Shown: piece after piece, positions 6,162 through 21,452 of the stretch
How positions within the stretch are numbered: position 1 is the stretch's first letter
Layout of the letters: each line of letters opens with the position of its first letter
Source of the DNA: a virus
Length of the DNA: 22,691 bases
Direction: 5' to 3' (one strand)
IMG/VR virus record: IMGVR_UViG_3300042465_002827
Coordinates: 1-22,691 of that record
The notes under the pieces: model-generated
Database searches by the model: none
Seen by the model: only the letters and a program-made list of their open reading frames with translations
Told to the model about the DNA's origin: nothing
Program-made: the position numbers and the translations under genes

Positions 6162-7103
6162 TTATATTGTAAATTTAACGATTTCTGCAACTTGAGAAAC
6201 TTGAACTCCGTATTTGTAATCCATTTTAAAACGAACTAAATCGAAGTCTTCAGAGTACCAAAACTTAAAGGTTTCTTCTTCGTTTTGTAAATCTACTCCC
6301 AAGAACATATTTGCATCTTGCAAAGCATAGATTGCGTTCACTCCATTAAGACCTGGACAAGAAACAATAGTTACATCAGTTCCGTGTAATTTCATTTCAC
6401 CTAATGCACTTTCTACACTTGTGTAGTTGAATAAGTTTGCGTTAGTTAATGCGATTTGATACAATCTGAAAATGTGTGTACCTACGTTTACTTTTAAGTC
6501 AGATTTGTTTAATAAAGCAATTGGAATTGCTTGGTAAACACCTTGCATAATTGAGATGATGTTTGCTGCTGTGATAGCTGTAGCTACTGCACTTACATAT
6601 GCTGTTGCGTTAGCTTGAACTGTTCCACTTGCTGCATTGATTATCTTAACTAAACCATCGAATTTGTTGATGTTAGGATTACCACTTGCTGTGTCACCTG
6701 TCCAAATTGCAACTTCTAATTGCTCTGCGTTTGTTCCTACTACTGTGTTAACGAATGCTTGGTCAATACCACCTGGTAATGCGCTATAGTTAGAACCTGG
6801 AGATAATAATAATTGTGTGTATTTTGACTCTAAATCCTTGATACACCATTCTTTGTTAACCTTGATTTTACCTACAGTTAAAGTTCTGCCACTGATTGAA
6901 GTGTTACCACTTGCTGAAAATCCACAAGTTGAGCCATCTTGAAAAAACAAGGTGTCAGATAAACTTGGAACTTCGATTGTTGATTTTACACCTGTTAATG
7001 GTGTCATTCTTGAAGCGGTTTTTGCTTCGAACATTGCTTTAGTAATTAGAACGTTTTCGTTCGGATTAGTGTAAGCGGCTAAAGTTGATACTACAAATGC
7101 CAT
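6162..7103 (-). CDS. Major capsid protein (HK97-fold type)
   Basis: A 313-aa protein expected to form the icosahedral shell. The N-terminus has the short arm MAFVVSTLAAYTNPNENVLITKAMF, with no long cleavable scaffold domain, since the scaffold appears to be a separate gene just upstream. Later segments fit an HK97-fold capsid: an A-domain-like region (NIISIMQGVYQAIPIALLNKSDLKVNVGTH), VTIVSCPGLNG with NAIYALQDANMFLGVD, and the final strand EDFDLVRFKMDYKYGVQV, the typical end of capsid proteins of this kind. The leader is almost pure A on the coding strand (7104-7130), a pattern favouring strong initiation in Bacteroidota. A terminator follows directly. Position after the scaffold-like gene supports the call. 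Fold assignment is from pattern, not alignment. Confidence 0.85.
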   Translation of the reverse strand: MAFVVSTLAAYTNPNENVLITKAMFEAKTASRMTPLTGVKSTIEVPSLSDTLFFQDGSTCGFSASGNTSISGRTLTVGKIKVNKEWCIKDLESKYTQLLLSPGSNYSALPGGIDQAFVNTVVGTNAEQLEVAIWTGDTASGNPNINKFDGLVKIINAASGTVQANATAYVSAVATAITAANIISIMQGVYQAIPIALLNKSDLKVNVGTHIFRLYQIALTNANLFNYTSVESALGEMKLHGTDVTIVSCPGLNGVNAIYALQDANMFLGVDLQNEEETFKFWYSEDFDLVRFKMDYKYGVQVSQVAEIVKFTI

Positions 7104-7133: not shown

Positions 7134-7679
7134 TTATATGTTACTATTTTTCCATTCAGCAATTCTGTCTGCTGCTGATTTTGCAGGTTTTGCTTTCTTA
7201 AATGTTGAATTCTTTGGTGCTTCTACAACTACGATTGGTTCTTCTGCGATTGTATCAACAATTTCTTTGATTTCATTGAATTTAGAATCTACATTAGCAC
7301 TTGCTAATTCAACTGCTGTAAACATTTCTGAAATTTTCTTTTCCATTTCAGCAATCTTCATTTCACAGTTGCCCATTCTTTCTTCGTAAACTTTCATATC
7401 TACTTCTGCTAACTCTACTTCTACTTCAACTTCTTCTGATTTAGGTTCAATCATTGTTACTAAACCACCTACTGTAGTTACTAATGTACCATCACTTAAT
7501 TCGTGAGTAGCATCAGGTGCAGGTGTTGTGTTACCATCAGTATCAATTACCATAATTGCTGTTCCTTCTCCTAATTCACCTTCCCATTGTACTAATGTAC
7601 CATCTGCTAATTTTGCATCATTAAAGTTCTCGTTAATGAATAATGCTTTTATCTTTGCGAATGCGTTTAATTTTGTCAT
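7134..7679 (-). CDS. Scaffold-like head assembly protein
   Basis: A 181-aa acidic protein directly before the capsid gene (30-nt A-rich gap). Residues about 21-75 hold repeated beta turns of the type LADGTLVQWEG, DTDGNTTPAPD and LSDGTLVTTVGG. Next come an acidic Glu/Val stretch (about 82-94) and a predicted coiled coil (about 95-150, ERMGNCEMKIAEMEKKISEM). The C-terminus is basic (KKAKPAKSAADRIAEW). Capsid scaffolds commonly have a long coiled coil and a basic C-terminal end that binds the coat protein, and lie immediately upstream of it. This supports the call. The N-terminal beta part could instead be a small decoration domain. The prohead protease, encoded upstream, would be expected to remove it during maturation. 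Confidence 0.7.
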   Translation of the reverse strand: MTKLNAFAKIKALFINENFNDAKLADGTLVQWEGELGEGTAIMVIDTDGNTTPAPDATHELSDGTLVTTVGGLVTMIEPKSEEVEVEVELAEVDMKVYEERMGNCEMKIAEMEKKISEMFTAVELASANVDSKFNEIKEIVDTIAEEPIVVVEAPKNSTFKKAKPAKSAADRIAEWKNSNI

Positions 7680-7820: not shown

Positions 7821-7851
7821 TTTGCAGATATCAAAAGTATTCATACATTTG
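7821..7851 (+). promoter_or_regulatory. Bacteroidota primary-sigma promoter for plus-strand cassette
   Basis: TTTG at 7821-7824 (-33 element), a 19-nt spacer, then TACATTTG at 7844-7851, an exact match to the TAnnTTTG -7 consensus. The transcript would start near 7857 and have a leader of about 18-20 nt before the ATG at 7876. This is the best promoter match in the window and uses host, not phage, rules. Confidence 0.85.
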
Positions 7852-8610: not shown

Positions 8611-8772
8611 ATGAGCAGAGGAGGCAAAAGGATTGGTTCAGGCAGGAAGCCTGGACTAATTACAAAAACAATCTCTTTCAGAATTACCGAAGAGTTGTAC
8701 ATAGAAACAAAAAATAAAAATATAATTGATTTAAATAAAAAATTTATACAATGGTTAACAAAGTTAAATTAG
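8611..8772 (+). CDS. Small putative DNA-binding protein, ribbon-helix-helix type
   Basis: A 53-aa basic protein. The N-terminus SRGGKRIGSGRKPG is a short, Arg/Gly-rich, DNA-contacting type of segment found at the start of many phage and transposase proteins. The remainder, KTISFRITEELYIETKNKN then FIQWLTKL, fits a ribbon-helix-helix (CopG/Arc) pattern: one strand and two helices. An ATG exists in the same frame 25 codons upstream at 8536. I prefer 8611 because the family motif starts there and it sits one base after the upstream stop (TAATATG). It could be the autoregulator of the cassette or an antitoxin-like regulator. Both are inference. Confidence 0.65.
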   Translation: MSRGGKRIGSGRKPGLITKTISFRITEELYIETKNKNIIDLNKKFIQWLTKLN

Positions 8773-8871: not shown

Positions 8872-9042
8872 ATGGATATAATAATAAATAATAAACCAGT
8901 TAGTATAGAACCCTACGAAAGGATTTTAATGGACTTGATTAATGGTAAACCAGCAGTTAATGAAAGTGAAAAAGAATTAGAACTTGAATTAGAGCAAATG
9001 AAAAAAGATGGTTTTACTCCTTACATTCCATCTAACCTTTAG
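8872..9042 (+). CDS. 56-aa acidic helical protein converging on zeta-like gene
   Basis: A 56-codon ORF: MDIIINNKPVSIEPYERIL, then a Glu/Leu-rich helix (about 31-46, ESEKELELELEQMKK) and a short tail ending PYIPSNL. It has no recognised family. It is preceded by an A-rich leader (CAAAAATGG) and lies 99 nt after the ribbon-helix-helix gene. Its last 11 bases overlap the end of the zeta-like kinase gene on the other strand. A small acidic helical protein beside a zeta-type gene could be an antitoxin, but no epsilon-family similarity was seen. Conservation elsewhere would be needed to be sure it is a gene. Confidence 0.5.
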   Translation: MDIIINNKPVSIEPYERILMDLINGKPAVNESEKELELELEQMKKDGFTPYIPSNL

Positions 9043-9946
9043 ACTTATTTAAAAACTTTTTATAAGCATTTGGATTATAAATAGTTTCTTTTCCATTAGA
9101 CTTGCTATATATTAGTTTTGGAGTAGTTCCATTATTATCATATAAATGCAATTCGTTAAATACATTATTTTTAGATAGCTTTGGGAATATATTAGATATT
9201 TCTTTGTGCATCTCTTTAATGTATTTAGGCGGTATATGTCTACCTGTTTGTTCGCCTCTTTTCTTTGCCCTATCTAAAGATGTTTTTACATCTGTAGTAA
9301 CATAATGAGCAATTACATTTTTACCTGCATCTCTTTGTATTTTAACCTTGTCTGCTACACTTTGATAGCTACCATCACCAACCGCATCAATTACAGTATC
9401 AAACTTATTGTTTGCAGCATTTTTAACTATATCTTTTGAAAGTTTAGAACTTTCCTCGTGTACTTTTGCTGCTGCTTGAAAATTTTTAGTCTCAAGCATT
9501 TTATTATATTCAGGTAATTGTGTTTTAATACCATCGGGGTCAACTTTAAGAATGCCACTTGGATATGTAACTAATCCAGATGTTTCTAAAGAACTTTTAC
9601 CAGTTGCTGGTGCGCCTCCTAAAAAATAACTTGTACCTAAATTAGTTGAGCCTTTTGACATTTCCTTACCAACTATTTCTTTTTGAAATGCAACTCTTTC
9701 TTCATTAAAATTACCATCTTTATCTGAATATAATTTTAACGTATCAATTTCTGGACTTGATAACAATTTATCTACATTTGCTTGTGCTTCATTTTGATAT
9801 TTATCACTTATTTCTTGAGGTGATTGATTTCCTATTTTTCCAGTACCGCTCGTTTCGTTATCACTTCCTCCTTCTTTAGTTCTTCCAGAGCCTGGACCGC
9901 CAAACCTAACAAATCTTATTAGTTCTATTGCTTCTTCTCTTTTCAT
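9032..9946 (-). CDS. Zeta-toxin-family kinase with phage head-protein N-terminal motif
   Basis: A 304-aa protein with a P-loop kinase domain. The Walker A motif is GGAPATGKSS (110-119), followed by the acidic KVDPDGIK (134-141), KVHEESSKLS (161-170) and the arginine-rich DRAKKRGEQTGRHIP (225-239). These match the order of motifs in zeta toxins, which phosphorylate UDP-N-acetylglucosamine and block cell-wall synthesis. Residues 16-28 read FGGPGSGRTKEGG, close to a GGPGSG motif that I associate with N-termini of phage head-morphogenesis and packaged proteins. The start codon overlaps the protease stop by one base (TAATG). A virion-carried toxin is an inference. A cytoplasmic toxin or a nucleotide or sugar kinase for phage maturation are alternatives. 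No epsilon antitoxin was recognised next to it. Confidence 0.8.
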   Translation of the reverse strand: MKREEAIELIRFVRFGGPGSGRTKEGGSDNETSGTGKIGNQSPQEISDKYQNEAQANVDKLLSSPEIDTLKLYSDKDGNFNEERVAFQKEIVGKEMSKGSTNLGTSYFLGGAPATGKSSLETSGLVTYPSGILKVDPDGIKTQLPEYNKMLETKNFQAAAKVHEESSKLSKDIVKNAANNKFDTVIDAVGDGSYQSVADKVKIQRDAGKNVIAHYVTTDVKTSLDRAKKRGEQTGRHIPPKYIKEMHKEISNIFPKLSKNNVFNELHLYDNNGTTPKLIYSKSNGKETIYNPNAYKKFLNKSKG

Positions 9947-10527
9947 TAATTATCAATTTGTTTAACTATATCAATCATTTCTTCAATTAGGTCTTTAGGT
10001 TTTTCAGCTATTTTTTCAGTCTTAAATACACCTTCAACAGAGAATCCTTTAAACTCTCCAGTCTTAATGAAATTATTCCAAATATCATCGTTATCTACTT
10101 TATAACTTCCAAACCAACTACCATCAGTTAAGTTAAATCCTTTTGGTGAATTAATATCTCTTGAACTATCAATGATAAAATTTTCAATCATATACACTCC
10201 TTCTAACATCTTATTAGAATCGTGCATCATATTTACCTCTTTGTCCTTTGAGTACTTGAAGAACTTATTGCGTAGGTTGTATATATCTATAGCTGTAAAT
10301 ACTCCGTAATACTCACCGCTTTCATCTCTTCTATAAATTGGAAGGTCTGCAACCATTAATGCTCCACTTATAACTCGTTTTTCTTTGTCAGCTACAAAAT
10401 TTATTTTTGTATTATTAAATGTTTGCCAATTCAATTCAATAGCAGGATTGTCAACCAATGCCATTGCTTCTAATTGTGACTCATCATCTTCACCTACTAC
10501 GAATCTATAAATGGGTAATTTCTCCAT
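9946..10527 (-). CDS. XkdF-like prohead serine protease
   Basis: A 193-aa protein resembling the XkdF type of prohead proteases, which cut scaffold and capsid precursors during head maturation. Seen are the early MALVDNPAI (22-30), RVISGALMVADLPIYRRD (51-68), NMMHDSN (99-105, candidate catalytic His102) and FKGFSVEGVF (159-168, candidate nucleophile Ser163). This His then Ser layout in a herpes-protease-like fold is known for the family. The C-terminus is a short charged helix. It lies between tape measure and zeta-like gene and about 2.3 kb before the scaffold gene in transcription order, rather than directly beside it. A TATATTATT motif lies 4 nt before its ATG. Confidence 0.85.
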   Translation of the reverse strand: MEKLPIYRFVVGEDDESQLEAMALVDNPAIELNWQTFNNTKINFVADKEKRVISGALMVADLPIYRRDESGEYYGVFTAIDIYNLRNKFFKYSKDKEVNMMHDSNKMLEGVYMIENFIIDSSRDINSPKGFNLTDGSWFGSYKVDNDDIWNNFIKTGEFKGFSVEGVFKTEKIAEKPKDLIEEMIDIVKQIDN

Positions 10528-19618: not shown

Positions 19619-19849
19619 TTAAAATTTAAATAATAATCTTTTTAACATTATAGAACCATAAGCACCATATCCTGCATACGCAAAAGGCTCGGCATAAGTT
19701 TGCAAATTAAAAACATAAGTAAGCACACATACCCAAAAGGTTAGGCACACTATACAGTTGAAAGGTTTAAAGTCTAACCACTTTGGGAATTGTGTAAGTG
19801 AAAAGAATGATACAAAGACCATTGCTATTCCGATTGCTATTATTATCAT
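19619..19849 (-). CDS. Small membrane protein with Cys-x-x-Cys
   Basis: A 76-aa hydrophobic protein. The first about 18 residues (IIIAIGIAMVFVSFFSL) form one transmembrane helix. A second hydrophobic stretch around 30-46 carries FNCIVCLTFWVCVL, and a third weaker one lies near 55-68. The CxxC within a membrane segment is unusual. Small membrane proteins of this type occur near terminase genes in Bacteroidota phages, but I know of no proven role. A holin is possible, though no endolysin was recognised nearby. The ATG overlaps the glycosyltransferase stop (ATGA), so the two are likely co-translated. Confidence 0.65.
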   Translation of the reverse strand: MIIIAIGIAMVFVSFFSLTQFPKWLDFKPFNCIVCLTFWVCVLTYVFNLQTYAEPFAYAGYGAYGSIMLKRLLFKF

Positions 19850-20952
19850 TTGTTTAATATTTGTTTGTATGCGTTATATCTTAATTCAGCTATTTTCTCT
19901 ATTGATTGCACCTGTACATCTAAATATAATTGTTCAGCCAGGTCTTCAATCATATTTGGATTACGGATTAGTTTTACCATATTTTTAAACCAATCGTGTT
20001 TGTTCTTTGCAATTAAGCAATTCTTATCAGTTAGTAAAGTATTGTATGGATGTACATCTGAAACTATTACTGCTTTCTTTTTAAATCCTGCTTCCAATAA
20101 TTTTAGGTTTGATTTCATATTATTAAACCTTGTATCTTTTAAAGGTATAAGAGCAACATTTATTTTATCATAAAAGTAAGCATAGTTATGTACATCAGTA
20201 CTTGGATATATTTCAAAGTTATTTGCACTTGCTTTGCCTTTACAAGATAGCACACCTAACATTGATTCTGATTCTCCATCTCCCTTTGCATATCCTCCAT
20301 ATATCATTTTGAATTCATCCTTATACCTGTAATCCGTGTATAGTGCTAATAAGCTATCGTGCATTAGCATAATGTCATCAAAGTGAGTAATACTACCACT
20401 CCAACCAAATACTACTTTTAAATCACTCTTAAAAGGTTTGGGTTCAAATTGTGCAAAGTCTGGTAATCCGTTTGGTATTATGTAAGTTTCTTTCTTTCCA
20501 AATTCTTTTGTTATCTCATCAGCTAAAACTTGGTGAGTACAGGTAATTACATCAGCATATCTAATTGAATCTTTTACATCTGCTCCTATGCCATCTCTTT
20601 TTGATACATTGTAAAGTATGTGATTTGTTGGAAGTAAGAAGTCATCATCCATATCAAGAACGAATTTAACTCCTGCTTTCTTTATTTTATCTGCTACTTT
20701 TTTTGATTCAAGTATCTTTGACATAGTTCTATTTGCTACAACTAAATCAAATCTTTGAATAAACTCAATCGAATCTACACCATCTATTTCATTTGAATCA
20801 ATATCACCTATTTGATGTAATTCAACATCATCTGAATATTTAAACAATGCTCTATGTGGATTAAGCAAACGATGATAATCAACTCCGTTTAATGTTGACT
20901 TTTCACCTGGCTTTGTTTCGCTATAACTTGGTATTAGAACTAATATTTTCAT
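19846..20952 (-). CDS. GT-B type glycosyltransferase (GT4-like)
   Basis: A 368-aa enzyme of the two-Rossmann GT-B fold that moves a sugar from a nucleotide donor. The N-terminal domain starts MKILVLIPSY and has LDMDDDF (99-105). The inter-domain region has IPNGLPD (159-165), common in GT4 enzymes, and the C-terminal domain opens with KVVFGWSGS (179-187). The donor-binding site is marked by SNLKLLEAGFKKKAVIVSD (281-299), matching the E-x7-E region of the family. There is no signal peptide, so it is cytoplasmic. It is coupled by ATGA to both the sigma-like gene before and the membrane protein after. Likely roles are modification of host surface sugars, virion proteins or DNA. The acceptor cannot be read from the sequence. 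Confidence 0.85.
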   Translation of the reverse strand: MKILVLIPSYSETKPGEKSTLNGVDYHRLLNPHRALFKYSDDVELHQIGDIDSNEIDGVDSIEFIQRFDLVVANRTMSKILESKKVADKIKKAGVKFVLDMDDDFLLPTNHILYNVSKRDGIGADVKDSIRYADVITCTHQVLADEITKEFGKKETYIIPNGLPDFAQFEPKPFKSDLKVVFGWSGSITHFDDIMLMHDSLLALYTDYRYKDEFKMIYGGYAKGDGESESMLGVLSCKGKASANNFEIYPSTDVHNYAYFYDKINVALIPLKDTRFNNMKSNLKLLEAGFKKKAVIVSDVHPYNTLLTDKNCLIAKNKHDWFKNMVKLIRNPNMIEDLAEQLYLDVQVQSIEKIAELRYNAYKQILNK

Positions 20953-21452
20953 TTTTTTAAAATCTTTGAATATTCTTTTATTCTGTTTTTTGCTTTTCTT
21001 AATGTTTCGTAACTAATACCTGTTGCACGATGTACTTTTGACAATGTTCCCAATTCGTTATAGTGTAGTAGTATTCGGTTATCCATCTCATCAAGTTCAA
21101 GCATAAACTCTTCTATGCTTTGTAAATCTACATTGTAGCCTATTTCCTCTTCTTCTAATACATTATCTATTGCTTCTTGATGTGTATCCTCCTTTGAATA
21201 GATGTATCCGTAATCTTCGTATTTATAAATGATGTAGCCTAACTTACCTTGTTTACTGATTATATTTCTCGCTACACAAAAAAACCAAAAAGACAAATGC
21301 TCTCTGGTTGGTAATCGGTCTTCAGCAATAGTCAATATTTGTTCGCATACTTCTTGAAAAATATCCTCACAATACTTCTTGTTTATTTTATAGCAAGTAG
21401 TTTTAAAACTTTCATTGCTTAAAATGTGTTCTATTATTTCGTTTCGTGTCAC
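20949..21452 (-). CDS. Sigma-70-family (ECF-like) transcription factor
   Basis: A 167-aa protein with the two domains of a small sigma factor. Region 2 (about 14-70) includes EDIFQEVCEQIL (29-40) and SFWFFCVARNIISKQ (54-68), similar to the DxxQEVF and W...IARN motifs of ECF sigmas. Region 4 (about 118-162) includes MDNRILLHYNELG and LSKVHRATGISYETLRKAKNRIKE, a helix-turn-helix for -35 recognition. The linker is short and acidic. It heads the coupled set that ends in the terminase genes, so it is a likely late-gene activator of the phage. A host-type regulator that lost core-binding is an alternative. A terminator hairpin lies just upstream. Confidence 0.75.
   Translation of the reverse strand: MTRNEIIEHILSNESFKTTCYKINKKYCEDIFQEVCEQILTIAEDRLPTREHLSFWFFCVARNIISKQGKLGYIIYKYEDYGYIYSKEDTHQEAIDNVLEEEEIGYNVDLQSIEEFMLELDEMDNRILLHYNELGTLSKVHRATGISYETLRKAKNRIKEYSKILKK

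Follow-up and report, generated by a model that had tools for sequence, protein, structure and literature searches.

The closest described systems to the one considered here are the MuF polymorphic toxins, head-borne effectors that are tied to temperate phages (Jamet 2017, PMC5576092; Apk2, PMC12226406; Bxa, PMC11699363). Apk2 has two partners: IapK, which blocks the toxin, and Aph1, which hydrolyses (p)ppApp (PMC12226406). Fusions of zeta kinases to MuF in phages are mentioned in one sentence of Iyer 2017 (PMC5512222), and Iyer 2022 (PMC9503650) has Nudix fused to MuF, to portal and to a capsid-processing serine peptidase. Here we analyse a zeta-type kinase gene of a freshwater-type phage, the IMG/VR virus record IMGVR_UViG_3300042465_002827, whose entire length of 22,691 bases is called the window. 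The gene adjoins that of an XkdF-like prohead protease. We propose, with a probability of roughly 0.6, that this kinase supplies the toxin of a polymorphic toxin-immunity cassette that has the XkdF prohead protease as its carrier.

Results

Three features of the window are central.

9946..10527, minus strand: XkdF-like prohead protease (Peptidase_S78_2), 193 amino acids (aa), overlapping the kinase gene by 1 nucleotide (nt)
9032..9946, minus strand: zeta-type kinase, 304 aa, with a leader helix (residues 3-11), a disordered GGPGSGR linker (12-37) and a kinase core (43-303)
9866..9904, minus strand: stretch coding for FGGPGSGRTKEGG, kinase residues 15-27; this linker is the cargo-XkdF junction in relatives

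The protease open reading frame (ORF) matches Peptidase_S78_2 (PF14550) at 1.6e-10, with 41.5 bits against a cutoff of 24, and the kinase ORF begins inside its stop codon, one base being shared (TAATG). An earlier note on this DNA had described that overlap, and a zeta-type kinase with the motifs FGGPGSGRTKEGG, GGAPATGKSS, HEESS and RAKKRGEQTGRHIP. All of these are present, and kinase residues 105-275 match Pfam Zeta_toxin (PF06414) at 1.4e-23, with 83.8 bits against a gathering cutoff of 22.3. An AlphaFold2 model from a 15-row alignment (predicted local distance difference test score, pLDDT, 78.5) has a short leader helix, disorder to residue 37 that includes FGGPGSGRTKEGG, and the kinase core; its top Foldseek matches are zeta (1gvn_B at 2.8e-10, 3q8x) and PezT (2p5t), far ahead of polynucleotide kinases. 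The sole match of the kinase-family profile in the PDB is zeta toxin, at 2.5e-8. A protein of 480 aa in a viral structure library, 63% identical, is named just 'Zeta toxin domain containing protein'; the bacterial genomes searched with the kinase gave no close relative and one match, at 26% identity.

Might the protein instead be a metabolic or repair kinase that serves the phage, acting on nucleotides or polynucleotides? Weaker matches to polynucleotide kinase (phrog_505, 7.8e-07; PDB, 3.4e-04) and the missing UDP-N-acetylglucosamine (UDP-GlcNAc) motif, described below, would fit this idea, but zeta and PezT are the best matches by orders of magnitude in both fold and sequence, and the kinase shares its slot interchangeably with a Tas1-like toxin and has a cargo-specific partner gene. 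We rejected a metabolic kinase on the fold search, and think it improbable.

The profile alignment sets kinase residues K117, D138, R226 and R236 against zeta K46, D67, R158 and R171, and all four are invariant across 15 homologues that are 54-90% identical to the window kinase. Alanine mutants of zeta have shown D67, E116, R158 and R171 to be essential, with E100 and T128 contacting UDP-GlcNAc (PMC6356619), and UDP-GlcNAc binding by zeta requires the GTxR motif (PMC6362051). The kinase family departs from this UDP-GlcNAc subtype, having K171 for E100, D187 for E116 and xVGD for GTxR (AVGD in the window, VGD being invariant). Judged from sequence, the family has therefore probably kept its chemistry and changed its substrate.

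These replacements bear on the suggestion, made in the earlier note, that the kinase blocks cell-wall synthesis or takes part in lysis. Phosphorylation of UDP-GlcNAc would be in keeping with the zeta fold and with the general reading of phage zeta kinases in PMC5512222, and such an activity would overlap with the toxin-cassette proposal if an injected kinase acted on UDP-GlcNAc. A cell-wall target is nevertheless unsupported because the GTxR motif is missing, and we rejected UDP-GlcNAc as an assured substrate. Lysis was likewise rejected, because a 35-kb relative that carries this kinase has an ordinary endolysin gene (phrog_894, 8.4e-27). We therefore regard lysis or cell-wall weakening as unlikely.

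The coupling of kinase and protease is stronger than the earlier note had claimed. An IMG/VR search with the kinase gave nine loci (designated L) at 75-90% identity, and protease, linker and kinase share a single reading frame of 485-486 aa in L002-L006, L008 and L009; the two genes are split in the window and in L001. Elsewhere, L211 has one 489-aa ORF with both Pfam domains above cutoff. The phage collection searched for an XkdF-zeta fusion held no cultured phage with one. No canonical -1 slippery heptamer was seen by eye at the overlap in the window, and we assume that protease and kinase are coupled there by reinitiation.

The linker motif in the kinase is not a chance occurrence, because GGPGSGR is invariant, except for its P, in the 15 homologues. 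When 2.9 million viral contigs were scanned with back-translated GGPGSGRxPEGG, 104 stretches matched, and 54 of the 102 motif-bearing frames read sit directly behind an XkdF domain. Outside XkdF, the ORFs with the motif include four with a Phage_portal_3 domain, one of them continuing into a PBECR1 nuclease. In line with the earlier note, which places GGPGSG motifs at the N-termini of phage head-associated proteins, GGPGSGR joins XkdF and portal to toxin or enzyme domains, with zeta and Tas1-like synthetase cargos among those behind XkdF. Because the motif also joins portal proteins to other domains, GGPGSGRxPEGG may serve phage head proteins in general as an adaptor. The domains that follow portal proteins and the motif are PBECR1, DUF4258, metallopeptidase-like or topoisomerase IB (L202:1516-3387; L129, L192, L147, L161, L130/L142/L170). 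Zeta domains and head proteins also meet in cyanophage PSS2, where MuF and zeta domains lie within one 1,499-aa 'minor head protein', and in halovirus HCTV-1, where a zeta protein directly follows a MuF protein shortly before the major capsid gene.

How variable is the cargo of the protease? A search with the protease of the L002 type yielded 80 loci that are 89-100% identical to it, and cargos and partner genes were counted across 95 distinct loci in which the scaffold gene could be seen. The XkdF protease either stops, its cargo-free end lying at 195-198 aa, or runs via GGPGSGRxPEGG into a cargo, the linker starting after 191-198 aa. The cargo is a zeta kinase in 16 loci (2 split) and a Tas1-like (p)ppApp synthetase, an already established kind of toxin, in 26, the match to Tas1 being 2.4e-44 by profile and 1.8e-15 by fold. 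Three XkdF C-termini (L123, L151, L281) carry an unassigned domain of about 100 aa that has no partner genes; in L123 its end repeats the XkdF tail helix (KIEKIKEILSQVK). A single ART-like cargo, recognised by eye in L107, is unconfirmed, with no significant PDB or phage match and no second copy found.

A tree built from 115 protease cores requires no fewer than 28 changes of cargo label (zeta 15, synthetase 13), many forks being poorly resolved; the starred branches alone force 7 (zeta) and 8 (synthetase). Two sets of identical protease cores bear different cargos, and 45 pairs at 97% identity or more differ in cargo. The window and L014/L018, which lack the cassette, are 98% identical in XkdF, 99% in the major capsid protein and 97% in the scaffold, whereas the window and L002, which has the cassette, are 77% identical in the kinase but only 46%, 48% and 29% in those three proteins. 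The near-identical head genes without the cassette, and the similar kinase on divergent head genes, show that the cassette has moved. Polymorphic toxin systems combine a constant trafficking domain with interchangeable C-terminal toxins, and such interchange is found here, with XkdF as the presumed trafficking domain.

The same comparison bears on whether the kinase is a head-assembly factor, its zeta domain a catalytically idle packing or scaffolding module. The kinase always lies within the head gene cluster in this phage group, and its leader (MKREEAIELIRFVRF) resembles the scaffold N-terminus, scoring a mean of 7.3 (best 25) against scaffold N-termini and a mean of -6.5 (best 17) against 1,740 other ORF starts. 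This suggests that leader and scaffold may share a core-targeting helix, which would suit the toxin-cassette proposal as well; any amphipathic helix would by itself raise such scores. An idle module is hard to reconcile with the invariance of K117, D138, R226 and R236, and the kinase is missing from phages whose head genes are 97-99% identical, so that we give this explanation very little credence.

The XkdF protease has a second, N-terminal cargo site. Insertions in relatives are an optional domain of about 100 aa (YNDYPxxASENAQxAL...CGTxVGxxRAxQLA) directly after NWQ(A/T)F in L001:4108-5001 and in the XkdF ORFs of L020-L036, and an extra HAD-like SFDFDDTLS module with a zinc ribbon in L028, L033 and L034. 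The order is reversed in L132:4488-6287, where a long N-terminal part leads through GGPGSGRHPEGG into the XkdF protease domain.

A small operon on the opposite strand accompanies the kinase.

8872..9042, plus strand: 56-aa gene convergent with the kinase, 3' overlap of 11 nt; candidate immunity protein or antitoxin
8611..8772, plus strand: 53-aa basic protein in this operon, ribbon-helix-helix-like by eye; found only in the window and L001
8001..8609, plus strand: 202-aa protein of family phrog_37844; in every zeta or synthetase cassette, not in cargo-free loci
7821..7851, plus strand: Bacteroidota-type promoter-like match, TTTG-N19-TACATTTG, upstream of this operon; the number of such matches is not above chance

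The partner genes sort with the cargo. A convergent gene of 56-57 aa adjoins the kinase in 16/16 zeta loci and occurs in 0/79 others; all 26 synthetase loci have a same-strand gene of 72-76 aa and an opposite-strand HD-domain hydrolase; and of the loci with neither cargo, 0/53 have any of these partner genes (Fisher p ~2e-18 for zeta and ~7e-24 for synthetase if the loci were independent, which they are not). Outside the kinase overlap the 56-aa gene is under purifying selection, with a nonsynonymous to synonymous rate ratio (dN/dS) of ~0.14. Its product has no Pfam match, its PDB profile matches are repeat-protein artefacts, and it has no detectable similarity to epsilon or PezA, which sets it apart from the cognate antitoxins of zeta and PezT. 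At the level of genes, then, each main toxin has a cargo-specific neighbour with a candidate immunity function. The phrog_37844 family (191-202 aa) lies ahead of the partner genes in zeta and synthetase cassettes alike and is absent from cargo-free loci; we rejected the 202-aa gene as a zeta-specific antitoxin because synthetase cassettes carry it too. The C-terminal half of the window's copy matches proteins of Vibrio and other phages.

Such an operon raises the question of whether the kinase ever leaves the cell in which it is made. It might belong to an intracellular toxin-antitoxin or superinfection-exclusion module in the late operon, made late and unpackaged, held by the 56-aa antitoxin, and freed once the cell is upset by a competing phage or by a defence system. 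The small convergent partner under purifying selection, the separate opposite-strand operon (the sole one seen in the 35-kb relative) and the split of kinase from protease in the window are all consistent with this. A free module, however, would not need repeated, precise fusion to a prohead protease through one linker, at many loci and with several cargos. We consider an intracellular module unlikely, though a more serious contender than the other alternatives. G001, as the 35-kb relative is designated, has just two plus-strand genes longer than 75 aa, and both belong to the opposite-strand group. That relative also encodes a TET-associated glycosyltransferase (L295:702-1571), hinting at modified DNA bases.

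Nearly all window genes lie on the minus strand, running from the terminase through tail-like genes, the XkdF protease, the kinase and then the scaffold-like and capsid-like genes to the portal. Two of the head genes are as follows.

7134..7679, minus strand: scaffold-like protein; N-terminal helix resembles the kinase leader
6162..7103, minus strand: major-capsid-like protein, weak SU10_MCP match; 99% identical in cargo-free L014/L018

In cargo-free relatives the scaffold-like gene follows XkdF by 40-50 nt. Sigma-70-type promoter matches in the AT-rich gap were given no weight, and no Rfam families were found in the window. Upstream of the terminase region, a glycosyltransferase-like gene (19846-20952) overlaps an extracytoplasmic function (ECF) sigma-like gene with a GTG start (20949-21452).

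Discussion

Fusion at the C-terminus of the protease, the linker, the swapping of cargos and the partner genes of the two main cargo types are directly established, and the window holds a variant in which the kinase comes from an overlapping gene that retains the linker and the leader helix. How might the cassette work? The XkdF protease, as part of the prohead core, would carry the toxin into the prohead, where the flexible linker would be cut during head maturation. The kinase could then stay in the head and enter the next cell with the DNA, there to phosphorylate a small-molecule metabolite, perhaps a nucleotide sugar or another nucleotide, and so aid takeover or harm rivals. The convergent 56-aa protein would neutralise the kinase in the producing cell. 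For a phage that lacks a recognisable integrase, the gain may lie in hitting the new host, or competitors already resident in it, early on.

Several points weigh against this proposal. Packaging, linker cleavage and delivery of the kinase are plausible steps that we infer, as are its toxicity and neutralisation by the partner. The window kinase is a separate gene, so that only a minor fusion product would allow covalent carriage by the protease. The 202-aa gene, present with both zeta and synthetase, is not cargo-specific, and the counts come from related loci and are not independent. Finally, no integrase (PF00589) was found in eight relatives of 29-36 kb, which are possibly incomplete; because MuF toxins go with temperate phages, the benefit of immunity is less obvious here.

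A wider and more tentative proposal, whose chances we put somewhat short of even, is that the head-maturation protease serves as delivery domain for a class of polymorphic toxins. As C-terminal passengers of XkdF, attached through GGPGSGR as a general adaptor in head proteins, the toxins would be loaded into the prohead, cut free by that protease and then injected. The phages concerned lack a recognisable integrase, and the zeta members would act on a new substrate and be paired with a new 56-aa antitoxin. If true, tailed phages would have a second chassis beside MuF for toxins carried in the head, and toxin loading would be tied directly to capsid maturation. GGPGSGRxPEGG behind a head protein offers a sequence handle for finding more cargos, the orphan zeta kinase family with its altered substrate site is a defined biochemical target, and the two cargos and their predicted partners are small enough for laboratory testing.

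How does the cassette compare with known systems? With zeta and PezT (PDB 1gvn, 3q8x, 2p5t) the window kinase shares the fold, the Walker A motif, the catalytic Asp and both essential Arg residues; it differs in the absent UDP-GlcNAc motif, in a 56-aa partner unlike epsilon or PezA and in the link to a head protease. The type VI toxin Tas1 (6ox6) is related to the alternative cargo in the same XkdF slot, though it belongs to another delivery system and is not present in the window. Head-borne effectors are already known, and the polyvalent, head-packaged effectors likewise place zeta or Nudix on head proteins; the XkdF-zeta and XkdF-synthetase fusions, cargo swapping, common linker and partner genes are not described in the passages found in those papers (PMC5512222, PMC9503650). 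In the open literature, with subscription papers and preprints outside the search, neither the GGPGSGR linker nor a role for XkdF in carrying polymorphic toxins was found described, and nothing relevant on GGPGSG with phage turned up. MuF toxins have the same plan of a phage head protein as constant N-terminus, a variable C-terminal toxin and adjacent immunity genes, and (p)ppApp-synthetase cargo with a hydrolase and a small protein also occurs in XkdF loci, where the pair of small gene and HD hydrolase has the same layout as in Apk2 (PMC12226406). Pfam finds no Phage_Mu_F domain in the window kinase or XkdF. What distinguishes the XkdF loci from MuF toxins is that the carrier is the XkdF prohead protease, joined by a GGPGSGR linker to cargos that include a zeta kinase, in relatives in which no integrase was found and with an immunity operon that lies partly on the opposite strand.
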